Assembly: GCF_001758425.2 (NCBI RefSeq)
Contig: NZ_MDSS02000031.1
Coordinates: 1-41,242, forward strand
From: Nesterenkonia sp. PF2B19
Lineage (GTDB): Bacteria > Actinomycetota > Actinomycetes > Actinomycetales > Micrococcaceae
Direction of reading: 5' to 3'
DNA length: 41,242 bases
Part shown: piece after piece, positions 6,531 to 37,212 of the stretch
How the letters are laid out: the number at the start of each line of letters is the position of its first letter
How positions within the stretch are numbered: position 1 is the stretch's first letter
Notes under the pieces: model-generated
Databases searched by the model: none
What the model saw: the letters and a program-made list of their open reading frames with translations, nothing else
Told to the model about the DNA's origin: nothing
Program-made: the position numbers and the translations under genes

Positions 6531-6598
6531 TGAGTTGGTCGGACGTTGTGGAAACTCGAGTCGATCGAGCCGAGTACCCACAACTCCAGACCAACTCA
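6531..6598. repeat. Palindromic repeat family 1, copy A
   Basis: A 68-bp inverted repeat with outer arms TGAGTTGGTC / GACCAACTCA and centre TCGATCGA, 81 bp after the DUF4916 stop codon. The right arm matches the other copies well, while the left arm has several changes (GGACG where other copies have TGGAG or CGGAG). It is probably a terminator-like hairpin separating the upstream gene from the inositol operon. Related copies are at 19849-19918, 23200-23267 and 37147-37212. Confidence 0.85.
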
Positions 6599-6625
6599 CC
6601 GCTCCTCAGTGACCGCTGACGCAAT

Positions 6626-6659
6626 ATGTCTTGACATTAGAACATCCACGCGACAGAGT
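6626..6659 (+). promoter_or_regulatory. iolE operon promoter with candidate IolR operator
   Basis: The inverted repeat ATGTC-TT-GACAT occupies 6626-6637. A consensus -35 box, TTGACA (6631-6636), overlaps its right half. After 17 bp comes CAGAGT (6654-6659), a weak -10 candidate. The same TGTC-NN-GACA core lies in front of iolG, the ABC binding-protein gene and gntR. A repressor bound here would block RNA polymerase. Assignment to the GntR regulator at 25356-26093 is an inference. Confidence 0.65.
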
Positions 6660-6722
6660 GGTGCACACCACGTCATCACCAGCTCGTCGCCGCCACCGGC
6701 CGACGACGTCGAGGAGGCCGCA

Positions 6723-7682
6723 GTGACCACCACTCCCGCCCGCACCCCCAGCACCGCCGAGGACGGCACCCGCTCTCCCATCCTCATCGGCACCGCCCCG
6801 GACTCGTGGGGCGTCTGGTTCCCGGACGACCCGCAGCAGACCCCCTGGGAGCGGTTCCTCGACGAGGTGGTGGAGGCGGGCTATCACTGGATCGAGCTCG
6901 GCCCCTACGGATACCTGCCCACCGACGCTTCCCGCCTGGCCGATGAGCTCTCCGCCCGGGATCTGAAGGTCTCCGCCGGAACGGTCTTCACCGCCTTCCA
7001 CCGCGCCGGGGCCGACGAGCGCCAGGCCACCTGGGATCAGATCCACCGCGTCGCCGAGCTGACCTCCGCTGTGGGCGGGGAGCACATCGTGGTCATTCCG
7101 GCCATGTGGCGCGACGACGTCACCGGCGAGGCGGTGGAGCCCGGAACCCTCGACGCCGACGGCTGGCGACGCCTGGCCGAGGGCCACGACGAGCTGGGCG
7201 CGGTGCTCGAAGAGAAGTACGGCCTGGCCCAGCAGTTCCACTCCCACGCGGACTCCCATGTGTGCTCCATGGACGAGATCCTCCGTTTCCTGGAGGAGAC
7301 CGACCCACAGCGGGTCAGCCTGTGCCTGGACACCGGCCATGCCGAGTACGGCGGTGCCTCCTCCGCCGAGCTCATCCGGCGCCATCCGGACCGCATCGGC
7401 TACCTGCACCTGAAGCAGATCGACCCGGAGGTCATGGAGGTCGTCCGCCGCGACGACCTCACCTGGGCCGCCGCCAACAAAGCCGGTGTCATGGTCGAAC
7501 CGCCCGGCGGCCTTCCGGACCTCTCCGAGGTCATCGATGAGCTCGAGCAGCTCGGCCGCTCCTTCTTCGGCATCGTCGAACAGGACATGTACCCGGTGAC
7601 GTCCTTCCACGACCCCCTGCCGATCGCCGCTCGCACCCGGAAGCACCTCTGCGGCTGCGGCTCCCGCACGCGCATCCGCTGA
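6723..7682 (+). CDS. iolE: IolE-like inosose dehydratase / sugar isomerase family protein
   Basis: A 319-residue TIM-barrel protein of the AP-endonuclease-2-like xylose isomerase superfamily. It is the first gene of the iol operon and the best candidate for dehydration of 2-keto-myo-inositol to the trione. Evidence: IGTAPDSWGVWFPDDPQQTP near the N-terminus, GYHWIELGPYGYLPTD, and metal-binding-type blocks QFHSHADSHV, LCLDTGHAEYGG and YLHLKQIDPE. GTG 6723 is chosen because GAGGAGG lies just upstream; in-frame starts further up would run through the promoter and the palindrome. The C-terminus (CGCGSRTRIR) is unusual and lies next to a 12-bp tandem repeat, so a small indel there is possible. Assignment as IolE rests on family and position; a related isomerase activity cannot be excluded. 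Confidence 0.8.
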   Translation: MTTTPARTPSTAEDGTRSPILIGTAPDSWGVWFPDDPQQTPWERFLDEVVEAGYHWIELGPYGYLPTDASRLADELSARDLKVSAGTVFTAFHRAGADERQATWDQIHRVAELTSAVGGEHIVVIPAMWRDDVTGEAVEPGTLDADGWRRLAEGHDELGAVLEEKYGLAQQFHSHADSHVCSMDEILRFLEETDPQRVSLCLDTGHAEYGGASSAELIRRHPDRIGYLHLKQIDPEVMEVVRRDDLTWAAANKAGVMVEPPGGLPDLSEVIDELEQLGRSFFGIVEQDMYPVTSFHDPLPIAARTRKHLCGCGSRTRIR

Positions 7683-7726
7683 CGGGGCCGGAGCCGCAGA
7701 CGAAGCCGCAGACGCAGCCGCAGACG
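7656..7726 (+). repeat. Short inverted and tandem repeats between iolE and iolC
   Basis: CTGCGGCTCC (7656-7665, the end of iolE) is complementary to GGAGCCGCAG (7690-7699), giving a GC-rich hairpin. From 7691 three 12-bp units with the core AGCCGCAGACG follow (7691, 7703 and 7715). This may be a processing or partial termination point inside the operon, or simple sequence expansion. No T-tract is present. Confidence 0.5.
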
Positions 7727-7789
7727 CAGCGCACCGAATCTCCTCACAGCAGACCCCACATCACTCCTGGCACACCCGAAGGAGCACCC

Positions 7790-8776
7790 ATGACCCACGA
7801 GCTCATCACGATGGGACGCATCAGCGTCGACATCTACCCTGACGACATCGGCGTCGGCCTGGCCGACGTCACCCGCTTCGGCAAGTACCTGGGCGGTTCG
7901 CCGGCGAACGTGGCCGTGGCCGCCGCCCGGCACGGACGACGCACCGCGGTGATCACCCGCACCGGGGACGACCCCTTCGGCGAGTTCCTCCACCAGGAGC
8001 TGCGGCGCTACGGCGTCGACGACCAGTGGGTCACAGCGGTGCCGGAGCTGCAGACCCCGGTCACCTTCTGCGCCATCCGGCCGCCCGAGGACTTCCCGCT
8101 CTACTTCTATGGACGCTCCCCCAGCGCCCCGGATTGGGAGATCGAGGCGAACGAGCTCGACACCGATGCCATCGCCGCGGCCCGGATCTTCTGGTCGACC
8201 GTCACCGGGCTCTCCCGCCCACGTTCCCGCCAGGCGCAGGTCACCGCCCACGAGGCCCGCCCGCAGGCCTCGCTGACGCCTGGCCAGCACACGGTCCTGG
8301 ACCTCGACTACCGTCCCATGTTCTGGGACTCGGTGGAGCAGGCTCGAGAGCAGGTCGCCCGGATCCTGCCGCATGTCACCGTGGCGGTGGGCAACTCCGA
8401 GGAGTGTGCGGTGGCCGTGGGCGAGGGCACCCCGGACGACCAGGCGGACCGCCTGCTGGAGGCCGGAGTGAAGCTCGCCGTCGTCAAACGAGGCTCCGCC
8501 GGCGTCATGGCCGCCACCGCCGAGGAGCGGGTGGTCTCCAAGCCGCTGCCGGTGGAGACCGTCAACGGGCTCGGCGCCGGTGACTCCTTCGGCGGCGCGC
8601 TGGTCCACGGCCTGCTCGCCGGATGGCCGCTGGAGCAGGTCCTGGACTACGCCAACGCCGCCGGCGCCCTGGTCGCCACCCGGATCGCCTGCTCCGATGC
8701 GATGCCCACCCCCGACGAGGTCACCGCGCTGCTGGCCGAACGCGGCCGCCCCGTCCCCCAGGAGGTCCGGGCATGA
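7790..8776 (+). CDS. iolC: 5-dehydro-2-deoxygluconokinase
   Basis: A 328-residue PfkB/ribokinase-family kinase that phosphorylates 5-dehydro-2-deoxy-D-gluconate at C6 in inositol catabolism. The N-terminal GGSPANVAVAAARHG (residues 35-49) is the sugar-binding signature, and NGLGAGDSFGGA (259-270) is the ATP/anion-hole signature with catalytic base D265. AAGGAG precedes ATG 7790 at normal distance. The stop overlaps the next start in an ATGA arrangement, so the two genes are translationally coupled. Confidence 0.92.
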   Translation: MTHELITMGRISVDIYPDDIGVGLADVTRFGKYLGGSPANVAVAAARHGRRTAVITRTGDDPFGEFLHQELRRYGVDDQWVTAVPELQTPVTFCAIRPPEDFPLYFYGRSPSAPDWEIEANELDTDAIAAARIFWSTVTGLSRPRSRQAQVTAHEARPQASLTPGQHTVLDLDYRPMFWDSVEQAREQVARILPHVTVAVGNSEECAVAVGEGTPDDQADRLLEAGVKLAVVKRGSAGVMAATAEERVVSKPLPVETVNGLGAGDSFGGALVHGLLAGWPLEQVLDYANAAGALVATRIACSDAMPTPDEVTALLAERGRPVPQEVRA

Positions 8777-9830
8777 GCCGCACCGACCCGCCCCGCACCT
8801 CCGAGGCGCTGACCCCGGTCCACCAGCTGCGCCGCGAGATCTCCCCTCCGCAGAGCACATCGCCCGACGACGAGGATCCGCGCCGCTATGAGCCGCTCAC
8901 CCGCCTCCGACTGGAGCACCCGGAGTCCGTGGCGGCCGCCGCGCAGTCCCGACGACGTCACCCAGGCCCGGTGCACGGACGACAGAGCTTCATCATCGCC
9001 GCAGACCATGCCGCCCGCGGCGCCTTGGCGGTGAAGTCCGATCCGCAGGCCATGGCGGACCGGCGCCGGCTGCTCGACCGCCTCCGCATCGCCCTGGCCC
9101 ACCCGAAGGTGGACGGCGTGCTGGCCTCCCCCGACGTGCTCGACGACCTGCTGCTGCTGGGCGCCCTGGACGGCAAGCTGATCTTCGGCTCCATGAACCG
9201 AGCCGGCCTGCCGGGCCTGGTCAATGAGATCGATGACCGCTTCACCGGGCACACCGCCTCAGCCCTGAGTGCCCTCGGGGCAGACGGCGGGAAGATGCTC
9301 ACCCGGATCGCCTTCGACGACGCCGCCACCACCTCGGTGCTGGAGAGCACCGCCCAGGCGGTGGACCAGCTGCACGCCGACGGACTGATCGCCATGGTGG
9401 AGCCGTTCATCTCCCGCACCGAGGCCGGCCGCGTGGTCAACGACCTCTCCACCGAGGCGGTCATCCAGTCGGTGGCCATCGCCCAGGGGCTCGGTGCCAG
9501 CTCAGCGCGCACGTGGATGAAGCTGCCGGTGGTCGAGGACATGGAGCGCGTCATGGCCGCCACCACGCTGCCCACGGTCCTGCTCGGCGGAGACCCCTCC
9601 GGGCGCACCGACGAGGTCCTGGAGACCTGGCGCCGCGCCCTGGCGCTTCCGGGCGTGCAGGGACTCACGGTGGGCCGGACCCTGCTCTACCCTGACGGCG
9701 GTGACGTCGCCGCCGCCGTCGACGCCGCCGCCTCGCTGCTCAACGACAGCACACCCGGCGGCTCACCCGACGCCACAGATCCTGCACCGACCGGAGGACT
9801 CGCCCCGGCCGGCGCCACGAAGGAGGACCG

Positions 9831-9834
<4 letters not shown>
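8773..9834 (+). CDS. Cgl0159-type (beta/alpha)8 aldolase-like protein, probable DKGP aldolase
   Basis: A 353-residue TIM-barrel protein of the Cgl0159 family, which accompanies iolC in actinobacterial inositol clusters. Blocks seen are FIIAADHAARGAL near residues 75-88, VDGVLASPDVLDDL, and TWMKLPVVEDMERVMAATTL with a KLP lysine placed like the Schiff-base lysine of class I aldolases, then VLLGGDPSGR and LTVGRTLLYP. The start ATG 8773 overlaps iolC by 4 nt and the stop overlaps iolD by 4 nt. No IolJ-type class II aldolase is present in the window, so this protein probably cleaves 2-deoxy-5-kepto-gluconate 6-phosphate (DKGP) to DHAP and malonic semialdehyde. The activity is inferred from position and fold, not from a characterised close homologue I can name. 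Confidence 0.75.
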
Positions 9835-11818
<1,984 letters not shown>

Positions 11819-11819
<1 letters not shown>

Positions 11820-13366
11820 TGACCACCACCGAGACGACTCCCCAGACCACTGACGTCCAGAGCGCCGGCGTCGCCGAGATCACCCACTGGATCGACGGCA
11901 CCGCCGACGCCGGCCACGGCACCCGCCGCCAGGACGTGTTCAACCCTGCCACCGGTCAGGTCAGCGGCACCCTGCACCTGGGCGACGGCGAGGACCTGGA
12001 GAAGACCCTGCTGGCCGCGCGGCGCGCCGCCGACCTCTGGGCGGAGACCTCGCTGTCCAAGCGCATGGCCGTGCTGTTCCGATTCCGCGAGCTGGTGGCC
12101 TCCCACACCCAGGAGCTGGCCGCGCTGATCACCGCCGAGCACGGCAAGATGCTCTCCGATGCCGCCGGGGAGGTCGCTCGCGGCCTGGAGGTCGTGGAGT
12201 TCGCCTGCGCGGCCCCGCAGACGCTGAAGGGCGACTACTCGGACCAGGTCTCCACCGGGATCGACGTCTTCTCCTTCCGGCAGCCCCTGGGTGTGGTCGC
12301 CGGAATCACTCCGTTCAACTTCCCCGTCATGGTGCCGCTGTGGATGGCTCCGGTGGCGATCGTGACCGGCAACGCGTTCGTGCTCAAGCCCTCGGAGCGG
12401 GACCCCTCGGCCTCCCTGCTGCTGGCCCAGCTGTGGAAGGAGTCCGGGCTGCCCGACGGCGTCTTCCAGGTGCTGCACGGCGACAAGGAGATCGTGGACG
12501 GCCTGCTGACCCATGAGCTGGTCGACGGCGTCTCCTTCGTGGGGTCCACTCCGATCGCGCAGTACGTCTATGAGACCGGCACCCGGCACGGCAAGCGCGT
12601 CCAGGCCCTCGGCGGGGCGAAGAACCACGCGGTGGTCCTGCCCGACGCCGACCTCGACCTCGCCGCCGATCACCTCTCGGCCGCGGCCTTCGGCTCCGCC
12701 GGCGAGCGCTGCATGGCGATCTCCGTGGCCGTGGCGGTGGGCGACGCGGCCGACGCCCTGGTCGAGAAGGTGGGCCAGCGCGCCCGGGACATCACCGTCG
12801 GTGACGGCACCCAGGCCGAGGCGGAGATGGGCCCGCTGATCACTCCGGCCTCCAAGGAGCGCGTGCAGCGCCTCGTGGGCGAGGCGGAGGCCGACGGCGC
12901 CGCCGTCGTCGTGGACGGGCGTGATCTGGTGGTGGACGGCCGGGAGGAGGGCTTCTTCGTGGGCCCGACCGTGCTGGACCGGGTCCAGGAGCACATGTCT
13001 GCCTATGAGCAGGAGATCTTCGGGCCGGTGCTCGCGGTGGTCCGCGTGGACACCCTGGAGGACGCGATCCGGGTGATCAACGCCAACCCATATGGCAACG
13101 GCACCGCGATCTTCACCGGCTCCGGCCATGCGGCCCGCACGTTCCAGCGGCAGGTCACTGTGGGCATGATCGGGGTGAACGTGCCGATCCCGGTGCCGGC
13201 GGCGCAGCACTCCTTCGGCGGGTGGAAGGACTCGCTGTTCGGGGATCACCACATCTATGGCCCCGACGGCGTGCACTTCTACACGCGCGGGAAGGTCATC
13301 ACCCAGCGCTGGCCGCATCAGAACGACGAGTCGACCGCGTCGCTGAACTTCCCGTCCAACGGCTGA
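11819..13366 (+). CDS. iolA: CoA-acylating methylmalonate/malonate-semialdehyde dehydrogenase
   Basis: A 515-residue aldehyde dehydrogenase of the MMSDH class that converts malonic semialdehyde to acetyl-CoA and CO2 with NAD. It has ITPFNFPVMVPLWM (163-176) for cofactor binding, LGGAKNHAVVLPDAD, and the catalytic cysteine in GSAGERCMAI (about C298). The start ATG 11819 shares one base with the iolD stop (TGATG). It is the last gene of the first + operon: palindrome copy E begins 17 bp after the stop. Confidence 0.93.
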
Positions 13367-13382
13367 GACCCTCCCCGCCCGA

Positions 13383-13446
13383 AGATCGTCCCTCCGTGAG
13401 AGATCGTGCCTGAATCCACAGACGATCTCTCACGGAGGGACGATCT
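13383..13446. repeat. Palindromic repeat family 2, copy E
   Basis: Perfect 25-bp arms (13383-13407 and 13422-13446) of the form AGATCGTCCCTCCG... and its complement enclose a 14-nt loop containing CCTGAATCCA. The same loop word and nearly the same stem occur at 40487-40546. It lies 17 bp after the iolA stop codon and before the iolG promoter, so a terminator role is likely. No T-tract follows. Confidence 0.88.
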
Positions 13447-13484
13447 GTGTGGCGGGGCACCGCACTGAAATCCATTTCGTCCGA

Positions 13485-13519
13485 ATGTCTGGACAAAGTA
13501 ATGTGATGCGTCCTACAGT
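13485..13519 (+). promoter_or_regulatory. iolG promoter with candidate IolR operator
   Basis: ATGTC-TG-GACAA (13485-13496) is the operator-like inverted repeat. TGGACA (13490-13495) serves as -35 and TACAGT (13514-13519) as -10, with an 18-bp spacer. The -35 overlaps the operator in the same register as at iolE. A second inverted repeat, GTGATG (13503-13508) / CATCAC (13526-13531), flanks the -10. Confidence 0.68.
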
Positions 13520-13564
13520 GAGTGACATCACGGAACATCGCACGATCGAGGAGAGCTGAGACCA

Positions 13565-14629
13565 ATGTCGACACCGCAGCAGTCCGAACTCCGCGTCGCC
13601 GTCGTCGGCGCCGGGCGCATGGGCTCGGACCACGTGGACCGCCTCGCCCACCACACCCTGCGCGCCCGGGTCAGCGCGCCGTCCGTGGACGTCGACCGCG
13701 AGCGGGCCGCCGCCGTCGCCGCCACCGCCGGGGACGCCGCCGGAGAGCCACAGGTGTTCTCCAGCGTGGACGAGCTGCTGACCGCCGAGGCGGCCGACGC
13801 CGTCGTGCTGGCCACCCCGGGATTCCTCCACGAGGAGGCCCTCCTGAAGCTCCTCGACGCCGGGATCCCCGTGCTGTGCGAGAAGCCGCTGACCCCGGAC
13901 CCCGACTCCGCCCTGCGCGTGGTGGAGGCCGAAGTCGCCGCTGGCCGCCAGCTCATCCAGGTGGGCTTCATGCGCCGCTTCGACGCCGGCTACCGCCGGC
14001 TGAAGGACGCGATCGCCTCCGGCGAGCTGGGCGAGCTGCTGATGCTCCATCACCAGCACCGCAACCCGGAGGCGCCGGCCGAGTTCACGGACGAGATGGT
14101 CATCCATGACTCCGTGGTCCACGAGTTCGACGCCGTCCGGTACTTCACCGGCGAGGAGATCACCGACGTCTCCGTGCGGATCGGACGGACCACCTCCCGG
14201 ACCGGCAACGTGCGGGACCCCCAGCTGGTCACTGTGCAGACCGAGTCCGGACTGCTGGCCACCGTGGAGATCTTCGTCAACGCCCAGATCGGCTACCAGG
14301 TGCACACCCAGGCCACCTTCGAGAACGGTCTGGTGAAGATCGGCGAGGGCTCCGAGGTCGAGGTCACCACCGCCGGCCGCACCGGCGTCGAGGTCGACGC
14401 CGGATTCGTCACCCGGTTCCGCGACGCCTACGACCTCGAGGTCCAGCAGTGGGTGGACGCCACCCTGCGCGGCGAGATCGCCGGGCCCAGCGCCTGGGAC
14501 GGATACGCCACCGCCGCCTGCTGCGCCGCCGGCGTCGCCGCCCAGCAGAGCCGCACGGTCGAGCATGTGGCGCTGGCGCCCAAGCCCAGCTTCTACGCCG
14601 CCGCCACAGGCTCCCCCGCCCTGGCCTGA
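13565..14629 (+). CDS. iolG: Inositol 2-dehydrogenase
   Basis: A 354-residue Gfo/Idh/MocA-family NAD-dependent dehydrogenase. The Rossmann motif VAVVGAGRMGSDHVDRLA starts at residue 11; the catalytic lysine is in CEKPL (about K107); DSVVHEFDAVRYF (D182, H186) matches the Asp-x3-His pair of myo-inositol dehydrogenases. It oxidises myo-inositol to 2-keto-myo-inositol, the first pathway step. GAGGAGAG (13548-13555) precedes ATG 13565. Of the three dehydrogenases in the locus this one has the clearest IolG features and its own promoter. Confidence 0.88.
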   Translation: MSTPQQSELRVAVVGAGRMGSDHVDRLAHHTLRARVSAPSVDVDRERAAAVAATAGDAAGEPQVFSSVDELLTAEAADAVVLATPGFLHEEALLKLLDAGIPVLCEKPLTPDPDSALRVVEAEVAAGRQLIQVGFMRRFDAGYRRLKDAIASGELGELLMLHHQHRNPEAPAEFTDEMVIHDSVVHEFDAVRYFTGEEITDVSVRIGRTTSRTGNVRDPQLVTVQTESGLLATVEIFVNAQIGYQVHTQATFENGLVKIGEGSEVEVTTAGRTGVEVDAGFVTRFRDAYDLEVQQWVDATLRGEIAGPSAWDGYATAACCAAGVAAQQSRTVEHVALAPKPSFYAAATGSPALA

Positions 14630-14677
14630 GCCCGACCACTCGCAGACCCTGCCCCCACCTGCCCCGAGGACCCCTCC

Positions 14678-15552: not shown

Positions 15553-15605
15553 CCCGCCCCCCCTTCCCGCCCCGACCGGGCCCCGCGCCCGGATTCCCCT
15601 CCAGG

Positions 15606-15626
15606 CGCCCGACGTCGCGTCGGGCG
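15606..15626 (+). terminator. Hairpin between iolH and the MFS transporter gene
   Basis: CGCCCGAC (15606-15613) pairs with GTCGGGCG (15619-15626) around a 5-nt loop. It lies 53 bp after the iolH stop and 46 bp before the transporter start. There is no T-tract, so partial termination or mRNA processing is as likely as full termination. Confidence 0.45.
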
Positions 15627-15672
15627 TCCGTGAGGCGCACCCACCACCCGGCACAGACAGGATCGCCAGATC

Positions 15673-17109: not shown

Positions 17110-17143
17110 GTGGCTGCAGGACCTCTCATGAAGGAGACCAGTG

Positions 17144-18346: not shown

Positions 18347-18402
18347 CCTCCGCACCTGACGCCCCGCCGCAAGACCCGCACACGTCGGGTCGAGCTGGTG
18401 TG

Positions 18403-19848: not shown

Positions 19849-19918
19849 GCGAGGTGGTCTGGAGTTGTCGGTACTCGACTCGATCGACTCGAGCATCGAC
19901 AACTCCAGACCACCTCGC
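19849..19918. repeat. Palindromic repeat family 1, copy B
   Basis: A 70-bp inverted repeat with core 19851-19916, 22 bp downstream of the ABC ATPase stop on the - strand. Relative to copy D it has GAGGTGG instead of GAGTTGG, matched by CCACCTC in the right arm, and TTGTCG matched by CGACAA. These paired changes keep the stem intact; only three mismatched positions are seen in the 33-bp core arms. Confidence 0.88.
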
Positions 19919-23054: not shown

Positions 23055-23136
23055 GATCTCTCCTTCGAGCCTGCGGCCACGGGGTCGCTGCCGCCGTGGC
23101 CGTCGTAGGCTCCATCCTGAGTGACTCGCATCACAA

Positions 23137-23158
23137 TGTCAATAGGATGTCAGGACAT
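23137..23158 (-). promoter_or_regulatory. ABC importer promoter with candidate IolR operator
   Basis: On the - strand the inverted repeat ATGTC-CT-GACAT occupies 23158-23147. A consensus -35, TTGACA (23142-23137), follows 4 bp later, and after 17 bp comes CAGGAT as a -10 candidate. The core TGTC-NN-GACA is the same as at iolE, iolG and gntR. The word TGTGATGCG occurs in both this promoter and that of iolG, and here GTGA/TCAC forms a small second inverted repeat. Confidence 0.65.
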
Positions 23159-23199
23159 ATGCACAAATTGCGCCCTCGGCCTGGCCCCGCCTCCCGACG

Positions 23200-23267
23200 T
23201 GAGTTGGTCCGGAGTTGTGGATACTTCGAGCGATCGACTCGAGTATCCACAACTCCGGACCAACTCA
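23200..23267. repeat. Palindromic repeat family 1, copy C
   Basis: A 68-bp inverted repeat, 37 bp downstream of the stop of the - strand dehydrogenase gene. The outer 26 bp of each arm pair perfectly. Compared with other copies, TCCGGAG replaces TCTGGAG and the other arm carries the matching change. It separates the gntR-iolB-dehydrogenase unit from the promoter of the importer operon. Confidence 0.9.
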
Positions 23268-26093: not shown

Positions 26094-26114
26094 GGGGTCT
26101 CCTTCGTGCGTGTA

Positions 26115-26136
26115 ATTGTCAGTTTGTCACGACAAT
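26115..26136 (-). promoter_or_regulatory. gntR upstream operator candidate
   Basis: TTGTC-AC-GACAA (26124-26135) carries the TGTC-NN-GACA core found at three other inositol promoters. A further ATTGTC at 26115-26120 pairs with GACAAT at 26131-26136, giving overlapping inverted repeats. I could not place a convincing -35/-10 pair. Confidence 0.58.
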
Positions 26137-26313
26137 CGCATCTTTGGAAGAGTCTATGGGCTCATGATGTGATCCCGCCCATGATGCCACCGGACCGACG
26201 ACCTGACGACGCCCACCGGAGACGCTGGCCGGAGCGTCGGTGCGCGTCCAGGCGCGGCCGGTAGACTGGGCCGCTGCCGCAGGACGCGCCCGCCGATCGA
26301 CGAAAGGGCCTCG

Positions 26314-26852: not shown

Positions 26853-26863
26853 AGGACATGACG

Positions 26864-27697: not shown

Positions 27698-28092
27698 CCG
27701 CTCCGGCGCCTCTCCCCGCACTCCGGCCTCAGATGCCGACATTCCCGCCCGCCCGACGGGCAGGAGCCTGAGCCGGCCCCAGATGCGAGAGAGGCCCGGG
27801 CGGTGCCGTTCTCACCGCCCGGGCCACAACCCTGACCGAGCACCTCTCCGGAGGCCGTTGCACCGAAACCTCCGGGGTCTCCAAGCCAGGTTCTCGTGAT
27901 GCACGTACACCGTTTCTGTACGTCACGAACTATTTTCCTCCGGCAACGATGGATCCCTCTAGTCGACTTTCGTCTAGTGTTGCGGGGCCCGCACGGCGTG
28001 TTGTCCAGCTGACCTCCAGGTTCACCACAGGCTGCCTCCAGGTCAGCGCTTCCAGCTCGTGAAAACCTGGAGATGCCGGGCTACGCCGCGGC
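27698..28092. other. 395-bp convergent intergenic region with several inverted repeats
   Basis: No gene is seen between the pdxK stop and the sensor kinase stop. It holds a strong hairpin (27793-27825), an imperfect inverted repeat at 27890-27930 (left part GTTCTCGTGA...ACGTACA, right part TGTACGTCACGAAC), and an AT-richer stretch around 27925-27985 with TCTAG words at 27958-27962 and 27973-27977. Two overlapping inverted repeats lie at 28008-28072 (GCTGACCT with AGGTCAGC; CTCCAGGTT with AACCTGGAG). A small RNA or a double terminator is possible. Confidence 0.6.
27793..27825 (+). terminator. GC-rich hairpin downstream of pdxK
   Basis: GGCCCGGGCGGTG (27793-27805) pairs perfectly with CACCGCCCGGGCC (27813-27825) around a 7-nt loop, 95 bp after the pdxK stop. 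There is no T-tract, as is common for actinobacterial terminators. Confidence 0.7.
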
Positions 28093-29277: not shown

Positions 29278-29372
29278 GCAGCCAGTCTACGAGGACGGCC
29301 CCCGTCAGCTCGGCGGCAGGCTCCGGCCCCGTGCGCGCCGGACATCCAGGTCACGCTCCTACAATCGTGCTC

Positions 29373-30095
29373 ATGACCGACACGCCCGCCGATGAGGCCC
29401 CGACGGCGCCGACCCCCCGCGCCCCCGAGATCCGGGTCCTCATCGCCGATGACCACCCGATGATGTCCACCGCGCTGCGCACCTATGTGGACTCCACCCG
29501 AGGCATGCGGTGCGTGGGTGAGGTGCGGGACGGCAAAGCCGCCGTGGAGCTCGTGGCCCAACTGATGCCCGACGTCGTCGTGATGGACATGCACATGCCC
29601 GGCACCGACGGCATCCAGGCCACCGGACAGATCCGCCGCATGTTCGACACCGTCGCGGTGCTGGCGGTGACCACGTTCTCCACGGAGCGGTACGTGATCC
29701 CCGCACTGCGCGCCGGGGCGGGCGGGTACATCGTCAAGGACGCCGAGCCGGAGGAGATCATCGAGGCGATCCGGCAGGCCCATGACGGGCTGGCGCCCTT
29801 CTCCCCCTCGGTGGCTCGGGAGCTGATGCTCTCGGTGAAGGACGACCCTGCCCAGGTGGAGTCCATGCTGCGCCGCTACCCGGAGCTGCCGCGCATCCCG
29901 GAGCGGGAGCTGCAGGGGCTGAAGCTGCTGGCCAGCGGCCGGTCCAACGCAGAGATCGCCGCGGAGATGGTGGTCTCGGAGGCGACGGTGAAGGCCTATA
30001 TGGGGCGCCTCATGCAGCGCCTCGGCGTCCGCGACCGGGTGCAGCTGATCATCCGCGCCACGGAGCTCGGCCTGGTGGAGCCGGCGCTGGACTGA
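29373..30095 (+). CDS. NarL/LuxR-family response regulator
   Basis: A 240-residue regulator. The receiver has VLIADDHPMM (acidic pair) and the phosphoacceptor in VVVMDMHMPGTDG (D72). The C-terminal helix-turn-helix is LLASGRSNAEIAAEMVVSEA followed by TVKAYMGRLMQRLGVRDR. Residues 1-18 are a Pro/Thr-rich extension. TACAAT (29360-29365), a strong -10, is 7 nt before ATG 29373 with no Shine-Dalgarno, so translation is likely leaderless. It pairs with the divergent HisKA_3 kinase. Confidence 0.9.
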   Translation: MTDTPADEAPTAPTPRAPEIRVLIADDHPMMSTALRTYVDSTRGMRCVGEVRDGKAAVELVAQLMPDVVVMDMHMPGTDGIQATGQIRRMFDTVAVLAVTTFSTERYVIPALRAGAGGYIVKDAEPEEIIEAIRQAHDGLAPFSPSVARELMLSVKDDPAQVESMLRRYPELPRIPERELQGLKLLASGRSNAEIAAEMVVSEATVKAYMGRLMQRLGVRDRVQLIIRATELGLVEPALD

Positions 30096-30141
30096 GGAGG
30101 CCCAGCCCGGGCCCCCTCAGACCACGTCCCGTGCCGCCCGC

Positions 30142-31482
30142 TCACCCCGCGATCGGGTTCTCCAGCTCTCCGGCGTGGATGAGCGAGCCGGAGGCGTCGG
30201 CCAGGTCCACCATGTGCCGGGTGTTGCGCAGCTGCAGCCTGTTCAGGCAGGAGTGCGCATAGCGCGGCACCCGCAGGTCCAGCCGACGACGGCGGCTCAC
30301 CCCCTCCGCCTCGCCGCGGGCCTCCTGCTCCGCCACCACCTGGCTCACCACCTCCCAGAAGGCGGTGTCGGTGAGGACGCCGTCGGCATGCAGCACCCCG
30401 GCCAGGTGACGCAGCACCCCGCCGAAGACATCGGTGAAGATCAGCTGGGCGGCCTCGTCGTCGTCGATGACGTGCCGCATCCGGGAGATGTCCTCGTCCA
30501 GCTCCCGGTCACCGATGACGGCGGCCTCCTCGCCGATGTCCTTCATGAACACCCCGGTGACCCGGCCCTCCCGCAGCCGCAGGATGATGTTCTCCCCGTG
30601 CGGCATGAACGCGAGCTCGTGGACCTCCAGGCAGTGCAGCACCGGCAGCAGGTAGGCCCGCAGGTACTCGCCCAGCCAGGCCCGGGGCTTCAGCCCGGAG
30701 TCCTCGATGAGCGCCGCGGCCATCGAGGCGCCGCGCGCGTCCCGGTGCAGCAGCGCGGCCATGGTCATCAGCCGGTCGTCGGGCTCCTCCCGTTCGCCGA
30801 GCCGGGCGATCGGGCTCTCCCGCCACAGGGCGGCCAGCATCTTCTGCTGGTCGGAGGAGGCCTCGGCCCGGTGGTACGCGTCGCCGGTGTAGCCGATGGC
30901 GGCGTGCTCGCGCAGCACGTCGAAGCCGAGCTCAGCCAACCGGGCGTCGCCGCGCACCTGGACTGCCACCCAGTCATTGATCGCGGGGGTGGCACGCATG
31001 TAGGCCGGGGAGAGCCCGCGCAGGAAGCCCATGTTCTGGATGGACAGTGCGGTCTTGATGTAGGACCGCTCCGGGTGCCCGACGTCGAAGGCGGTCCGGA
31101 TGGACTGCTGGGGCTGCCAGGCCCCGGGCCCCTCCCCCAGCACCACAAGATCACGCCGGGCGATGTCGGGGGCGAAGCTGACCGCCACCCGGTGGCGGAA
31201 CTGCCAGGGGTGCACCGGCAGGAGCACGTAGTCGGCCGGGTCCAGGCCGAGGTCATGGAGCCGGGCGTGCAGGCGGGCCCGCCCCGCGGCTCCGAGCTCC
31301 AGCTCCCAGTGCTGAGCCTCCGTACGCCCGGCGCCGAGGTCCAGCCGAGTGTGGGCCCGTCGGGCGGCCACCCATACGTAGCGGAAGGTTGCACCGGACT
31401 CCGGCGCATAGGCGCGCAGGTCGTCCACACTGAAGCCGATGCGCCCGTTGGTGGCCACGAAGCAGGGATGCCCCTCGGTCAT
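30142..31482 (-). CDS. IucA/IucC-family NIS siderophore synthetase, main part
   Basis: A 446-codon reading frame that begins at an internal family position (MTEGHPCFVATNGRIGF). Full-length NRPS-independent siderophore synthetases have about 130 more residues, and these are encoded at the end of the preceding frame (31479-32729). Synthetase motifs seen are the ATP-binding GHPCFVATNGRIGF, LLPVHPWQFRHR, YIKTALSIQNMGFLRGLSPA and FMPHGENIILR, and the FhuF-like C-terminal half. Codons ending LQHTEAA run in frame straight into the ATG, so that ATG is not the true start. A one-base loss in a GGGGG run at about 31562 (six G expected) explains the split. The enzyme would join hydroxamate units, as DesD does. 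The final product cannot be read from sequence. Confidence 0.82.
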   Translation of the reverse strand: MTEGHPCFVATNGRIGFSVDDLRAYAPESGATFRYVWVAARRAHTRLDLGAGRTEAQHWELELGAAGRARLHARLHDLGLDPADYVLLPVHPWQFRHRVAVSFAPDIARRDLVVLGEGPGAWQPQQSIRTAFDVGHPERSYIKTALSIQNMGFLRGLSPAYMRATPAINDWVAVQVRGDARLAELGFDVLREHAAIGYTGDAYHRAEASSDQQKMLAALWRESPIARLGEREEPDDRLMTMAALLHRDARGASMAAALIEDSGLKPRAWLGEYLRAYLLPVLHCLEVHELAFMPHGENIILRLREGRVTGVFMKDIGEEAAVIGDRELDEDISRMRHVIDDDEAAQLIFTDVFGGVLRHLAGVLHADGVLTDTAFWEVVSQVVAEQEARGEAEGVSRRRRLDLRVPRYAHSCLNRLQLRNTRHMVDLADASGSLIHAGELENPIAG

Positions 31483-32729
31483 GGCCGCCTCGGTGTGCTG
31501 CAGGTCCCCGGCGACGTCGAGGTCCCGCCGTCCGCGGGCCAGCTGGGCGGCGGAAGGCCCCCGCGATGGTTCTTGAACGCCGCGCTGGCCAGGGTCGCGG
31601 CGACCTCCTCCAGGTAGGTGCCCAGCAGGTCCTCGGGGATGCCGAGGAGGTGCTGCAGCTCGACGATCAGCTCTTGGGCGTCCAGGGGGCGCTGATGGCC
31701 GTGGACGGCGTCGAGGCGCTGCAGGCTCTCCTCGTCGAGGACCCAGTGGTCCAGGGCCAGGCGGCGGGCTCGGAACCGGTAGGTGCTGGCGCCGGGGACC
31801 TCCAACCTCCAGAGTGGCGCAGCGCCGGCGGGCTCGCCCGGGTCCTGCTCTGCCGTCGGCCTGAGGAGCTTCTCATGGCTGAACTCCGCCAGCGCCTTGG
31901 CCACCAGGTGCCGCTGGGCGAGGGCCATGTGCTCGGGCCGCAGATGCTGCGTCCCCGCGTCACCCCCTGACCCCACCTCTGCGGCCGACCCGGCGGCCGA
32001 CCCGGCGGCCGACCCGGCGACCGACTCTGTTCCCACCCCTGCGGCCGCCGCCTCGGGGCGGGTCCCGCGGGCCAGCACGCTGAGCATGGCCCGTTTGTCC
32101 GGCAGGGCGATCTCGCGCAGCTCCTCGAAGCCGACCTCGCGGTTCTTCCGGCGCACCGCATCGTTCTCCACGTCCGGCTCCACCACGAGACGGCCTGCGC
32201 CCAACGACCAGCAGTGCGCGACGACGGCCCGCATGATCGCACTGGTCAGTCCGTGGCGCCGGCGTGTCACGTCCTGCGGCGCCGGTGCGACGAGCAGATG
32301 CATGCCCAGGTCACCGGTCTCGGCGTCGTGGACGTCGGTGAGCACCACGCGGGTCGGGTCATAGGTCTCCACGCAGACCAAGGCGTCTCCGGCCTCCTCC
32401 CCGATCCAGGCGTCCTGGGCGTCGTCGTCGGTGATCTGCTCCAGGTACCGACGCACCTGTCCACGGCTGAGGTGCCCCATCTGCCAGTGGTGGGCGCCCG
32501 GGTGGGTCAGCCACCGGTGCACTCGGCCGGCGTCGGTCTCCGGATCAGCGGGCCGGAACACCAGCGGCAGGTCCGAGGTGCCGCAGGCCGGCTCCGTCAG
32601 TGCGGGGTCGTCGACGATCGGCACGGCACCGGCAGGGGTGTCTCCCGTGTCTGTGGCCTGTCGGGTCTCGGTCGTCTGTGTGGACATGGTCGCCTGTGGG
32701 GTGATGGTCGTCTGTGGGGTGATGGTCAT
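31479..32729 (-). CDS. GNAT acyltransferase fused to the N-terminus of an IucA/IucC synthetase
   Basis: A 416-codon frame. Residues about 1-35 are Thr/Gln-rich. About 36-210 form an IucB/DesC-like acyltransferase: FRPADPETDAGRVHRWLTHP, AHHWQMGHLSRGQV, DLGMHLLVAP, VVEPDVENDAVRRKNREVGF. It would acylate an N-hydroxy diamine. A Gly/Ala/Ser linker with AGSAAGSAAGSAA follows. The rest, LAQRHLVAKALAEFSHEKLL to TLASAAFKNHRGG, is the N-terminus of an IucA/IucC synthetase that continues in the next frame at 31482. The ATG overlaps the monooxygenase stop by 4 nt (ATGA). With the frame restored the product would be one bifunctional protein of about 860 residues. The last 28 or so codons of this frame are out-of-frame sequence. 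Confidence 0.8.
   Translation of the reverse strand: MTITPQTTITPQATMSTQTTETRQATDTGDTPAGAVPIVDDPALTEPACGTSDLPLVFRPADPETDAGRVHRWLTHPGAHHWQMGHLSRGQVRRYLEQITDDDAQDAWIGEEAGDALVCVETYDPTRVVLTDVHDAETGDLGMHLLVAPAPQDVTRRRHGLTSAIMRAVVAHCWSLGAGRLVVEPDVENDAVRRKNREVGFEELREIALPDKRAMLSVLARGTRPEAAAAGVGTESVAGSAAGSAAGSAAEVGSGGDAGTQHLRPEHMALAQRHLVAKALAEFSHEKLLRPTAEQDPGEPAGAAPLWRLEVPGASTYRFRARRLALDHWVLDEESLQRLDAVHGHQRPLDAQELIVELQHLLGIPEDLLGTYLEEVAATLASAAFKNHRGGLPPPSWPADGGTSTSPGTCSTPRRP
31981..32028 (-). repeat. Four 12-bp tandem repeats in the GNAT-synthetase linker
   Basis: Units at 31981, 31993 and 32005 are identical (GCGGCCGACCCG) and a fourth at 32017 is degenerate. They encode the repeated AGSA linker between the two enzyme domains. 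They are probably variable in length between strains. Confidence 0.85.
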
Positions 32730-34069
32730 CGTGGCACCTCCGCGGTGGTGGGGAGTCCGAACTGCTGGAAGGCGATGCGCCGCTCCAGCGGGTAGTGCTC
32801 CTCGCCGGTGATGGTGGCGAGGATCGAGGCGCTGCGCCAGGCGCCCATGCCGAGGTCCGGCGCGGTCAGCCCGTGAGTGTGCTCCTCGGCGTTCTGCACG
32901 AAGATCCGTCCGCCGAGCGTGTCGATGCGGTAGTCCCGCCCGACGGCGAGGCGGCCGGCGGCGTCGCGGCCGATGAGGTGTTCCACGGGTTCCAGGAAGC
33001 TCGGGTCCCGGGGCGTGTAGCCGGTGGCGAGAATCAGGTGGCCCGTCTGGTGCTCGGCCTGCTCGCCCAGCTGCCGGTGCACCAGCTGCAACCGGTGGGA
33101 CCCGTCGGCGGGATCCCAGACGGCGCCGGTGACCTCTGTGTCGGTGAGCATCCCGACCTCGAGGGGCCGGTGGGCGCTGAGCCGATAGAGGGCGTCATGG
33201 ATCCGGTCGATGGTGGCGGTGCTGATTCCCTTGTAGAGCCCGCGCTGCTCACGGGTGAGCTGGTCGCGCACGCCCTCGGGCAGGCGGTGGAAGTGATCGG
33301 TGTACTCGGGAGAGGTCAGCTCCAGGGTCAGCCGGGTGTCCTCCATGGAGAAGAAGCGCGGGGACCGGGTGATCCAGTCCAACCGCAGGTCGTGCTCCCG
33401 ATGGGACTCCAGCAGGTCCAGGAAGATCTCGGCCGCGGACTGCCCGCTGCCCACCACGGTCGCCGATCCGGCGGCGAGGATCTCCTCGCGGCGGTGCAGG
33501 TAGTCCGCCGAATGGGTGGCTGCCGGCGAGGCGTCCACATCCTCCCGCAGCGCGGCGGGCACATGCGGGGCGGTGCCGATGCCCATCACCACGTGGCGTC
33601 CCCGACGGACCTCCACCCCGTCCGCGGTGACCGCGGTGACCACGAAGGTGTCGGTGGCGGCGTCGTGCTCCACGGACTCCACCTGACGTCCCCAGCGCAG
33701 GGAGGGGAGCCGATCGGCGGCCCACCGGCAGTAGGCGTCGTACTCGCTGCGCAGCGGGTGGAAGTCCTCGCGGATGTAGAACGGGTAGAGCCGCCCGGTC
33801 TGCTTGAGCCAGTTCAGGAAGGAGAACTCGGAGGTCGGGTCCGCCATGGTCACCAGGTCGGCGAGGAACGGCACCTGGATGGTGGCGTCGGTCAGCATCA
33901 TGCCGTGGTGCCAGGCGAAGCCGTCGCGGGAGTCGAGGAAGACGGCGTCGACGTCCTCCAGGGGGTGGGCCAGGCAGGCCAGCCCGAGGTTGAAGGGACC
34001 GATGCCGATTCCGACGACGTCGTGCACGGCGCCTCCGCCAGCTTCCTCCGGGGTCGGTGTGCTGGTCAT
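32726..34069 (-). CDS. Diamine/lysine N-hydroxylating monooxygenase (siderophore)
   Basis: A 447-residue flavoprotein of the lysine N6-/ornithine N5-/cadaverine N-monooxygenase family. FAD binding: VVGIGIGPFNLGLACLAHP. Substrate region: QVPFLADLVTMADPTSEFSF and NWLKQTGRLYPFYIREDF. NADPH binding: ATVVGSGQSAAEIFLDLLES. C-terminal family block: LILATGYTPRDPSF. It hydroxylates the primary amine made by the decarboxylase. Start and stop both overlap neighbours by 4 nt, so the siderophore genes form a tightly coupled operon. DesB-like cadaverine hydroxylation is likely but not certain. Confidence 0.92.
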   Translation of the reverse strand: MTSTPTPEEAGGGAVHDVVGIGIGPFNLGLACLAHPLEDVDAVFLDSRDGFAWHHGMMLTDATIQVPFLADLVTMADPTSEFSFLNWLKQTGRLYPFYIREDFHPLRSEYDAYCRWAADRLPSLRWGRQVESVEHDAATDTFVVTAVTADGVEVRRGRHVVMGIGTAPHVPAALREDVDASPAATHSADYLHRREEILAAGSATVVGSGQSAAEIFLDLLESHREHDLRLDWITRSPRFFSMEDTRLTLELTSPEYTDHFHRLPEGVRDQLTREQRGLYKGISTATIDRIHDALYRLSAHRPLEVGMLTDTEVTGAVWDPADGSHRLQLVHRQLGEQAEHQTGHLILATGYTPRDPSFLEPVEHLIGRDAAGRLAVGRDYRIDTLGGRIFVQNAEEHTHGLTAPDLGMGAWRSASILATITGEEHYPLERRIAFQQFGLPTTAEVPR

Positions 34070-35568
34070 CGAGAGGCCTCCTCGGCGAGACTGGCCGGCG
34101 CTCCGGCCCGGTGACGGTGCAGGATGCGGGCGCATTCGGCGACCTCGTCCAGGCTCTGGGCCACCTGCTCGGCGGTGGTCTCCGGGTCCAGCAGCGTGAG
34201 CTTCAGACAGGGCCGGGAGTCCAGGACGGTCTTGGCGACCATGACCCGCCCAGACTCCTGGAGCACCTGGCGGACCAGCGCGACCAGCGCATCGGCGTCC
34301 TGGTCCCCCACGCCTGCCGGCTGCCACCGGAAGAGCACCGTGGTGAGATCGGTGGGAGCGAGCAGCTGCAGCTCATCGTGGCCCTCCACGTGGCGATGCA
34401 CCTCCTGGGTGAGGTCCAGCAGGGCGTCCCAGGCCCGCCCGACGGCGTCGACGCCCGCCCCGCGCAGGGTCGCGTAGAGCTTCAGGGCGTCGAAGCGTCG
34501 GGTGGTCTGCAACGACTTGTCCACCTGATTGGGCTCGGCGCCGCCGGCGGGGTTGAGGTAGTCGGCGTGCCAGGCTCCTCGCCCCAGGTCTGCGGGGTCG
34601 CGCACCACCAGGGCGGAGGAGGAGACCGGCTGGAACCAGGCCTTGTGGAAGTCCAGCGTCACGCTGCGGGCCGATTCGATGCCGGCCAGCCGATGGGCCT
34701 GGCGCTCCGAGGCCAGCAGCCCGCAGCCGTAGGCGGCGTCCACGTGGAGCCAGAGGCGCTGGCCGCGGCAGATCTCGGCCAGCGGTTCGAGCGGATCGAT
34801 GACCCCGCGGTCGGTGGTGCCGGCAGTGGCGGCCACGGCCATGGGAACCCGGCCGTCGGCGGCGATCTCCTCGAGGAGGCGCCGCAGGGCTGCCGGGTCC
34901 ATGCGGCCGGCGTCGTCCGAGTCCACGGTGATGACCGCGTCGTCGCTGAGGCCGAGGAGCAGCGCGGCCTTGGCGATGCTGAAGTGGCTCTGCGAGCTGG
35001 TGAGCACCACCAGCTGCTGCTGGCGCACCGCACGGGCGGGCCCGGAGGTGCCGGTCAGGGCCGCCTCCCGGGCCAGGAACAGGGCCTGCAGGTTGGACTG
35101 GGTGCCTCCCGAGGTGAAGATGCCGTCGCCCCGGCTGTAGCCGATGCGCCCGGCGATCCAGCTGATCAGGCGGCGCTCCAGGAACGTGCCGATGCGGGAC
35201 TGGTCGTAGGTGTCCACGGAGGGGTTGACGGCGGCGAGCACGGCCTCGGCGGCCACAGCGTGCACGTCGACGGGACAGTTCAGATGGGACAGGTACGCCG
35301 GGTGGTGGTACCAGACGGCTTCGGCGAGGAAGAGCTCGTCGAGCTCCTGGAGCAGGGCGGGGCCGCCGATGCCGGGGGCGTCGAGGTCGACGGCGGCGGC
35401 TCGGTCGGCGAGCTCACGCTGAGGCGTGTTGGTGGAGGGCGCGTCGGCGGAGGCGAGTCGCAGGGAGATCCGCGAGCTGACCTCCCCCATGAGGGCGTCA
35501 TAGGACCCGGTGGCTCCGGGGCGCAGAAGGGTGAGCTGATCTGGGAGGACATCATGTGAAGCTGTCAT
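34066..35568 (-). CDS. PLP-dependent amino acid decarboxylase (DesA/DABA-decarboxylase type)
   Basis: A 500-residue group II decarboxylase. GIFTSGGTQSNLQALFLARE is the PLP phosphate-binding block, LWLHVDAAYGCGLL holds the PLP-pyridine aspartate, and SVTLDFHKAWFQP carries the HK Schiff-base lysine. It would make the diamine of the siderophore: cadaverine from lysine as for DesA, or 1,3-diaminopropane from 2,4-diaminobutyrate. ATG 35568 has no Shine-Dalgarno; a promoter with -10 TATGCT ends 8 nt before it, so the message is probably leaderless. It is the first gene of the operon. Confidence 0.9.
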   Translation of the reverse strand: MTASHDVLPDQLTLLRPGATGSYDALMGEVSSRISLRLASADAPSTNTPQRELADRAAAVDLDAPGIGGPALLQELDELFLAEAVWYHHPAYLSHLNCPVDVHAVAAEAVLAAVNPSVDTYDQSRIGTFLERRLISWIAGRIGYSRGDGIFTSGGTQSNLQALFLAREAALTGTSGPARAVRQQQLVVLTSSQSHFSIAKAALLLGLSDDAVITVDSDDAGRMDPAALRRLLEEIAADGRVPMAVAATAGTTDRGVIDPLEPLAEICRGQRLWLHVDAAYGCGLLASERQAHRLAGIESARSVTLDFHKAWFQPVSSSALVVRDPADLGRGAWHADYLNPAGGAEPNQVDKSLQTTRRFDALKLYATLRGAGVDAVGRAWDALLDLTQEVHRHVEGHDELQLLAPTDLTTVLFRWQPAGVGDQDADALVALVRQVLQESGRVMVAKTVLDSRPCLKLTLLDPETTAEQVAQSLDEVAECARILHRHRAGAPASLAEEASR

Positions 35569-35576
35569 GTGAGGGG

Positions 35577-35604
35577 AGCATAACTGCAATTACGTCATAT
35601 TCAA
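35577..35604 (-). promoter_or_regulatory. Siderophore operon promoter
   Basis: On the - strand TTGAAT (35604-35599) and TATGCT (35582-35577) are separated by 16 bp. The region is AT-rich against the background and contains an imperfect palindrome, TAACTGCAATTA (35581-35592). No match to the DtxR/IdeR iron box was found, so the iron control site is not identified. Confidence 0.55.
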
Positions 35605-35898
35605 GTGCTGTAATCCTGTGAGGTTGCTGGAAGCTGCTTGTGGGCCCGGTGCACTGCCGATGGCCCGGGCCCGTCGGCGCGGCCGCGAGGGCCTGCCAGG
35701 ACGCAGGTGTCCCGCGCTGACCGGAGGTACAAGAAAGCCCACCCAGCCCTCGCTGCCCCATGCTCAGAGTGAGGCATGTCACCAACCTGTGACGTTGCGC
35801 GTCGTCGACACCTGCGGGCTGGCATCCGTCGCACACGCAGTGACTCTCGGGTAACATGTGGGGCGGCGCACATCACCGACCAGCTGCTGGAGGCCCTC
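35605..35898. other. Divergent intergenic region between siderophore and acyl-CoA dehydrogenase genes
   Basis: Together with the promoter entry this makes a gene-free stretch of about 330 bp. A GC hairpin, GGGCCCGG (35642-35649) with CCGGGCCC (35665-35672), stands about 40 bp upstream of the siderophore -35. TAACAT (35852-35857) is a weak -10 candidate for the + strand gene. No other structure was seen. Confidence 0.5.
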
Positions 35899-37131
35899 AT
35901 GCGAGCCGAGATCGACCCGGACTACGACGTCACGACGCCCCGCGACCTGGACTACTACGGCGTCTTCGCGGACATCCCTGATCAGGACCGTGCCTGGTGG
36001 ACCCGTGCCCGGGAGTTCTCCACGGGCCTCGAGGAACGCATGACGCAGTGCTGGGAGGCCGGAGAGTACCCCGTGGATCTGGTCCGAGACGCTGGCGCCC
36101 GCGGGCTGCTCACCGACGGGGTCGACGTCGACGGCGTGGGCGAGGGCCTGAGCACCCTCTCCCCTCTGGCGGCCGGACTGGTCAACATGGAGACCTCCCG
36201 GACCGACGGCTCCCTGGGCACCGCACTGGCCGTGCAGGGCGGTCTGGCACTGCGCACGCTGGCGATGTTCGGCTCCGATGAGCAGAAGCAGCAACACCTC
36301 GCCGACCTGGCCACCGCCCGCACCCTGGGCTCCTTCGCCCTGACCGAGCCCACCCACGGCTCCGACTCGGTCTCCCTGGAGACCACCGCGCAGCTGGTCG
36401 GCGATGAGACCACCGGCCACTACGTGCTCAACGGCGCCAAGAAGTGGATCGGCAACGGCGCCTCCGGCGGCATCACCTTCACCTGGGCCCGGGTCTCCGG
36501 CGGCGAACACGACGGACAGGTCCGCTGCTTCCTGGTCGACCAGGAGACGGAGGGCTACCGGGCCGAAGTCATCGAAGGCAAGGCCTCGCTGCGCGCCATC
36601 CACCAGGCGGTCATCGAGTACCACGACGTCACCCTGCCCGCCGACGCAGTGCTGCCCGGCTCACACTCGTTCAAAGACACCTCCAAGGTCCTCTTCGCGA
36701 CCCGGCTGGGAGTGGCGTGGTCCGCCGTCGGACACGCCGCCGCCGTCGTGGAGGCCGCCCTGAACTATGCGACCCAGCGGGAGCAGTTCAGCAAGCCGCT
36801 GGCCGGGTTCCAGCAGGTCCAGGAGCGGCTGACCTGGATGACCTCCGAGCTGACCTCCATGCAGCTGCACGTGCGGAAGGTGACCGAGCTCGACGCCGCT
36901 GGGAAGCTCTCCGGCCCGCAGGCCTCGATGGCGAAGTACCACAACACTCGCAAGGCCCGGGCGATCGCCCAGGTGGCTCGCGACATGCTCGGCGGCAACG
37001 GCATCCTGCTGAAGAACAAAGTGGCCCGGCACATGGCTGACATCGAGGCCATCCACACCTATGAGGGCACCGAGTCAGTGCAGTCCCTGATCATCGGGCG
37101 CGACCTGACCGGGCACTCCGCCTTCGCCTGA
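35899..37131 (+). CDS. Acyl-CoA dehydrogenase (glutaryl-CoA dehydrogenase-like)
   Basis: A 410-residue flavoenzyme. Family blocks: LGSFALTEPTHGSDSVSLET (FAD/substrate), YVLNGAKKWIGNGASGGITF, YATQREQFSKPLAGFQQVQE, AKYHNTRKARAIAQVARDML, GGNGILLKNKVARHMADIEA, and the catalytic-base region IHTYEGTESVQSLIIGRDLT (YEGT). These features are closest to glutaryl-CoA/short-chain dehydrogenases. CTGGAGG precedes ATG 35899 by about 5 nt; earlier in-frame codons are not homologous. It lies divergent to the siderophore operon, and a link to lysine breakdown is possible but unproven. Palindrome copy D begins 15 bp after the stop. Confidence 0.88.
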   Translation: MRAEIDPDYDVTTPRDLDYYGVFADIPDQDRAWWTRAREFSTGLEERMTQCWEAGEYPVDLVRDAGARGLLTDGVDVDGVGEGLSTLSPLAAGLVNMETSRTDGSLGTALAVQGGLALRTLAMFGSDEQKQQHLADLATARTLGSFALTEPTHGSDSVSLETTAQLVGDETTGHYVLNGAKKWIGNGASGGITFTWARVSGGEHDGQVRCFLVDQETEGYRAEVIEGKASLRAIHQAVIEYHDVTLPADAVLPGSHSFKDTSKVLFATRLGVAWSAVGHAAAVVEAALNYATQREQFSKPLAGFQQVQERLTWMTSELTSMQLHVRKVTELDAAGKLSGPQASMAKYHNTRKARAIAQVARDMLGGNGILLKNKVARHMADIEAIHTYEGTESVQSLIIGRDLTGHSAFA

Positions 37132-37146
37132 CCCCTCCCCCGCGCT

Positions 37147-37212
37147 GAGTTGGTCTGGAGTTTTGGGTACTCGACTCGATCGAGTCGAGTACCCAAAACT
37201 CCAGACCAACTC
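37147..37212. repeat. Palindromic repeat family 1, copy D (perfect)
   Basis: A perfect 66-bp palindrome with arms beginning GAGTTGGTCTGGAGTTTTGG and centre ACTCGATCGAGT. It has no unpaired loop beyond the turn. GTTTTGG with CCAAAAC replaces the GTTGTGG / CCACAAC pair of copies A and C, another paired change. It lies 15 bp after the acyl-CoA dehydrogenase stop. Confidence 0.95.

Follow-up and report, generated by a model that had tools for sequence, protein, structure and literature searches.

Four long palindromes stand in a 41,242-nt contig of Nesterenkonia sp. PF2B19 (NZ_MDSS02000031.1, positions 1 to 41,242, hereafter the window), each 15-81 bp past a stop codon, and facing bases in their arms change together. 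The question raised by this locus is what these palindromes are and what keeps their arms matched. We find that they belong to a genome-wide family of 22 copies that lie mainly at gene 3' ends. We give about even credence to the reading that this is a low-copy extragenic palindrome family, like repetitive extragenic palindromes (REPs) in its behavior but outside the tested REP classes, which would act as a 3'-end barrier and whose arms may be kept alike by template switching.

Read directly, the four-copy family claimed in an earlier note on this DNA is real, and the core of each copy measures 66 bp (Table 1); the positions given there were right, with zero to two extra flanking bases included per side. 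Copy D is a perfect palindrome, as claimed (33 of 33 pairs), and copies A, B, and C retain 26, 30, and 28 of the 33 pairs, respectively. The paired arm changes were all found again, namely T4 to G with G19 to C in copy B, T10 to C in copy C, and G17 to T in copy D. In this DNA of 70% G+C content, the four copies top the window's list of direct repeats (81 nt including flanks), and a hairpin scan returned 10 hairpins with an arm score of at least 10, three block-shuffled controls giving 0, 0, and 1. Copies B and D were among those 10, the less perfect copies A and C being beyond the limits of the scan. Together with the matches elsewhere in the genome, the repeat list and hairpin scan establish that the window copies are not a product of chance.

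Table 1. Coordinates of the palindromes, their leaders, and other hairpins in the window.
Feature	Position	Strand	Remarks
Copy A, 66-bp palindrome	6532..6597	.	81 bp 3' of the DUF4916/NUDIX gene stop codon
Copy B, 66 bp	19851..19916	.	Pairing extends 19849-19918; 23 bp past the minus-strand ABC ATPase gene stop
Copy C, 66 bp	23201..23266	.	37 bp past the minus-strand iolG-like gene stop
Copy D, perfect 66-bp palindrome	37147..37212	.	15 bp past the acyl-CoA dehydrogenase gene stop
Stop-to-copy-A leader, C-rich, G-poor	6451..6531	+	Last 50 nt C 0.66, G 0.14; candidate Rho-loading region
Stop-to-copy-D leader, C-rich	37132..37146	+	C 0.73, G 0.13
Ordinary single-copy 13-bp GC hairpin	27793..27825	.	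Between convergent genes; comparison hairpin
Second, unrelated hairpin family, member	13383..13446	.	16 bp past the methylmalonate-semialdehyde dehydrogenase (iolA-like) gene stop
Second hairpin family, other window member	40487..40546	.	

A covariance model built from 20 copies and searched against the 3.70-Mb genome placed the family at 22 sites, not just the window's four. These sites gave 44 matches (both strands) with E values of at most 5.3e-8, the next match having an E of 0.41; the closest pair of copies is 369 bp apart, and none of the 22 form dimers. The 66-bp length is held in 20 of them, the irregular ones being C134b, with short deletions, and C77b, one arm of which carries a 22-T expansion. 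In the copy with this T run, at L038:2733-2816, the other arm has 4 A in the corresponding place, which may reflect slippage or an assembly error. Across the 20 aligned copies, the ends, a GGTC motif, and the centre are near-invariant and arm positions 17-22 are variable. One reading of the consensus arm has two 11-bp modules, GAGTTGGTCTG and GAGTTGTGGGT, and then ACTCG and a TCGATCGA-type centre; GAGT occurs at arm positions 1 and 12, ACTC at positions 23 and 28. Transcripts of the palindrome could fold into a hairpin with as many as 31 pairs.

Beyond this genome, the distribution is narrow. The covariance model (E 0.001), run against 29 other genomes of the genus, found two copies in a sister species (G029) and none in the remaining 28 (completeness is 90% or more in 26 of the 30 genus genomes). 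Of 295 genomes in the taxonomic family, only this genome and G029 carry the palindrome, in a search whose stricter filters recovered 16 of the 44 matches in our own genome and could therefore miss weak copies. Matches in G081 and G176 were not accepted as relatives: they are long perfect hairpins of a different kind, similar to the family mainly in the centre. An origin from a phage or from an element of wide distribution was likewise set aside: exact patterns had no matches in viral contigs, and in a species-genome collection that may leave out near relatives one search gave none and another gave two, both of them single-arm matches in Planctomycetota, without the palindrome and, by a rough estimate, at about chance level. 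A known RNA family was set aside after scans against Rfam, with no match in the window and, for palindromes in six other loci, only microRNA matches far below gathering scores. Among the open-access papers listed in literature searches, none described such a palindrome family by title or abstract; most subscription papers lay outside the scope of those searches.

The placement of the copies relative to genes was assessed on a map from a simple codon-scoring script, which misses some genes and ignores RNA genes. On this map the gaps between codirectional genes hold 11 copies (including C60, so counted because its next feature is a plus-strand tRNA), convergent gaps 8, and divergent gaps 2; the remaining copy is within an open reading frame. 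Intergenic bases of a 321-kb sample (with one 3.4-kb overlap) were 61.7% codirectional, 10.0% convergent, and 28.3% divergent, so that convergent gaps are enriched for the family (8 of 21 intergenic copies, p = 6e-4; 9 of 21 with the tRNA ignored, p = 9e-5; 6 of 21 when both stops must fall within 90 bp, p = 0.014). In codirectional gaps the copies sit nearer the upstream stop, at a mean relative position of 0.27 (n = 11, p = 0.007). Overall, a stop codon precedes the copy by no more than 100 bp in 17 of 22 cases, and 19 of 22 copies adjoin at least one gene 3' end. The 15-81 bp spacing reported for the window's four was accurate, and 3'-end placement extends genome-wide apart from the two copies between divergent genes and the one inside an open frame.

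The sequences flanking the hairpins bear on what such a 3'-end element might do. Family tails, counted for 18 copies (without C134a, C134b, C104, and C77b), are T-poor, with a mean of 0.62 T per 8 nt in 26 sense tails versus 1.09 in the background (p = 0.008), and all 26 have zero to two T in 8 nt. Tails of ordinary single-copy hairpins (24 tails of 16 hairpins, out of 31) are T-enriched, with 1.79 T per 8 nt versus the same background (p = 8e-4). The U-rich tract directly 3' of the hairpin that marks an intrinsic terminator is accordingly lacking in the family, whose stable stems followed by fewer than three U in 8 nt resemble the U-lacking hairpins described in PMC8269248. The stretch between stop codon and palindrome, taken from 17 copies (C118b, C77a, C77b, C134a, and C104 excluded, as was C44's left flank of 8 nt), is C-rich and G-poor: C minus G averaged 0.207 in 22 flanks versus 0.037 in 153 other 3' regions (p = 6e-5) and versus 0.062 in 22 flanks of 14 ordinary hairpins (without L122:2744 and L127:15333; p = 0.008). 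The tail p-values and the comparison of leaders with ordinary hairpins were computed on rounded values. Rho-binding regions are described as C-rich and G-poor in PMC9927376, and the leader would fit termination by Rho, the hairpin serving as a barrier at the 3' end. Given this leader and the T-poor tails, we favor a transcript end made with the help of Rho and bounded by the hairpin.

The matching of the arms was examined on 20 of the 22 copies (without C77b and C134b), with the two sister copies added for the mismatch and flip analyses. Paired cells made up 89.4%. Two-sided changed cells numbered 32 versus 14.8 in shuffles, and the covariation score was 0.173 versus 0.093, neither value being reached in any of 500 shuffles; pairs that had changed on both sides numbered 10 versus 7.9, a value reached by 71 of 500. 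Covariation of the arms, as the earlier note had it, thus exceeds the shuffles on all measures but the count of two-sided pairs, in a comparison that does not remove relatedness among copies. Selection on an RNA stem, one of the causes suggested in that note, was not supported as the main one: with the upstream gene used to set the orientation of 11 copies (10 here and 1 in the sister), the mismatches among 341 pairs were 7 G-U, 10 A-C, and 30 other, G-U not exceeding A-C. Additionally, in 5 of 44 arms the 7-nt core, flanked by GAGT and ACTC, scores higher flipped than forward. The left arm of C63 (9.6 bits flipped versus -7.8 forward) and the right arm of C104 (8.4 versus -4.3) are clearly flipped, with post hoc chances over 44 arms of about 0.003 and 0.017, respectively. 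Stem selection would not favor these two flips because they break stem pairing. An ordinary terminator at L115:14437-14478 differs from its G029 orthologue (L129) by an exact loop inversion (ATGATT/AATCAT) and by a C-G to A-T stem pair change, compensated between the two species. The alternative of arm copying, also raised earlier, is better supported by the absence of a G-U excess, the flipped segments, and the inverted loop, and template switching during replication appears to explain the covarying arms better than RNA selection does.

Comparison with the sister species showed sites at several stages of occupancy. C43 is common to both at an orthologous site, where similarity spans the palindrome and ends at its outer edge; checked for one-sided arm replacement, the two differ on both arms, and no conclusion was drawn. 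The second G029 copy corresponds to a syntenic site here that keeps one arm-like half, without the left arm and centre, and either a loss in this genome or a gain in G029 would fit. The palindrome is absent from the syntenic G029 site of C134a and from the orthologous G029 sites of copies A and D, that of D also lacking it in the congener G021. In a MAFFT alignment the sister seemed to retain a half-arm remnant of copy C, which was discarded when an arm profile gave no report even at E 100. In G021 a different, perfect 28-bp palindrome (L091:701-728) lies near the site orthologous to that of copy A; the gene downstream of it is the same as here, and the other neighbor is different.

How well other explanations account for these data can be judged from the same observations. 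If the family were a recurring intrinsic terminator with a selected RNA stem, the paired changes would be ordinary compensatory mutations, and hairpins after stop codons (including those between convergent genes), covariation above shuffles on most measures, and the use of the same kind of site by single-copy hairpins would all follow; strong non-family hairpins in the sample fell in gaps with an adjoining gene 3' end in 20 of 24 cases, the other four being within predicted genes (3) or in a divergent gap (1). A plain intrinsic terminator, one form of the recurring terminator suggested in the earlier note, is nevertheless unlikely because the family tails are T-poor and those of ordinary 3' hairpins T-enriched; G-U pairs are not in excess in the sense orientation, the flipped segments disrupt pairing, and one mismatch in a 31-pair stem should, we reason, hardly matter. 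Taken as a whole, this explanation seems to us improbable. A binding site in DNA for a protein dimer, with GAGT/ACTC modules 11 bp apart and a fixed TCGATCGA centre so that sequence matters and not the hairpin, would account for the near-invariant ends, GGTC, and centre next to variable positions 17-22, and for the 66-bp length held by most copies; absence from 28 of 29 congeners and the tie to gene 3' ends, with just two copies between divergent genes, make it very improbable.

Mobility deserves somewhat more weight, and a non-autonomous transposable palindrome, resembling miniature inverted-repeat transposable elements or REPs and served by a transposase elsewhere or since lost, is in our view unlikely. 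Similar copies are dispersed at unrelated loci and restricted to a species, and the sister sites of A, D, and C134a are empty. On the other hand, the Y1 transposase domain PF01797 was not found here or in the sister (other transposase families were not searched), target-site duplications were not visible by eye in the flanks of 20 copies, and end patterns at up to one mismatch all fell inside the 22 palindromes, with no longer element sharing these ends. The assembly is 96% complete in 134 contigs, and an insertion sequence could be missing from it. Of the small mobile palindrome suggested in the earlier note, two traits are supported, namely expansion in one species and empty or reduced orthologous sites. 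A further scheme, in which spread and upkeep need no transposase, would have a replicating strand switch into a hairpin elsewhere and overwrite an existing 3' hairpin partly with family arm and centre. Two hints point this way: the right arm of the second G029 copy is orthologous to part of the half-site here, although a deletion here would look identical, and a different perfect palindrome occurs in another congener near the site of copy A. We regard this scheme as a long shot; if true, the family would be a self-templating, sequence-converting 3'-end element.

Under the explanation that we prefer, the family would have expanded in one species, mainly at 3' intergenic sites. Rho would load on the C-rich stretch 3' of the stop codon, transcription would stop beyond the palindrome, and exonucleases would trim back to the hairpin, which most likely would be the 3'-end barrier. 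The arm match would be kept chiefly by replication template switching, with one arm copied from the other, and switching may sometimes flip the segment between the internal GAGT and ACTC repeats. Copy number, placement, T-poor tails, C-rich leaders, flipped segments, and differences in occupancy between the species are observations, and the part of Rho, the protection of 3' ends, and the way in which the family spreads are inferred from them. Several observations weigh against this explanation. The overall excess of 3'-adjacent copies is slight (19 of 21 versus 71.7%, p = 0.039), and a 3'-end role is not obvious for C134a and C104, between divergent genes, or for the copy in the C-terminal part of a Na:Ala symporter frame, beyond the Pfam domain; moreover, all placement counts depend on that simple gene-calling script without RNA genes. 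The C-rich leader could instead be an insertion preference, and the palindrome is dispensable, at least at sites A and D in the sister. Both arms of C67 and the right arm of C118a are flipped only weakly, and the loop inversion is one isolated example rather than a tally.

We judge the family to be REP-like and not part of any known family tested. GTAG- and CGTC-tagged REPs, as characterized by Di Nocera et al. 2013 (PMC3733652), are likewise extragenic palindromes, some families being species-specific, and lie mostly downstream of genes, between unidirectional or convergent open reading frames, as here. They differ in being 20-40 bp long (PMC3733652), and neither their unpaired GTAG or CGTC end tag (no shared tag in the 20 aligned copies with flanks) nor the REP-associated tyrosine transposase (RAYT) of the GTAG class was found, PF01797 being absent from this genome and G029; unlike REPs, the family has no dimers and just 22 copies here. 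RAYT-driven REPs were rejected on the absence of PF01797 from this genome; the domain occurs in 1 of 30 genus genomes (G009), which lacks the palindrome. Streptomyces U-lacking structured transcript ends, likened in PMC8269248 to I-shaped terminators, also have a strong 3'-end stem with fewer than three U in the next 8 nt; the same source cites Rho-dependent ends protected by hairpins. Those are a class of transcript ends, whereas ours is a one-sequence repeat family. Template switching at quasipalindromes produces arm homogenisation and inversion of the spacer or loop between inverted repeats, as here, in the examples drawn from PMC8604942 and PMC8794818, which concern yeast genes and RNA genes, including bacterial rRNA loop inversions, and not a dispersed bacterial repeat family. 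Quasipalindrome correction by template switching is reportedly also known from work in E. coli.

Other features of the window were also recorded. The second hairpin family (Table 1) has arms like GATCGTCTCTCCGTGAGAGATCG, each arm itself being a near-palindrome, with seven hairpins in the genome at up to one mismatch and one more at L115:14326-14387; it was found in none of the 29 other congeners, and one copy is absent from G029, where the adjoining ordinary terminator is kept. A sister-conserved block 3' of copy A is a probable promoter of the next gene. Blocks at 6624-6647 and about 23120-23165, conserved in the sister, carry TGTC-TTGACA-like motifs upstream of inositol-catabolism genes and may belong to an IolR-type regulon as its operators or promoters.

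Covariation between stem arms is widely accepted as proof of functional RNA structure. In this family it is accompanied by flipped segments and lacks an excess of G-U, a combination suggesting that the mutation process may generate such a signal. If confirmed, the 22 copies and the sister species would make a natural test case for the origin, perfection, and spread of long bacterial hairpins.

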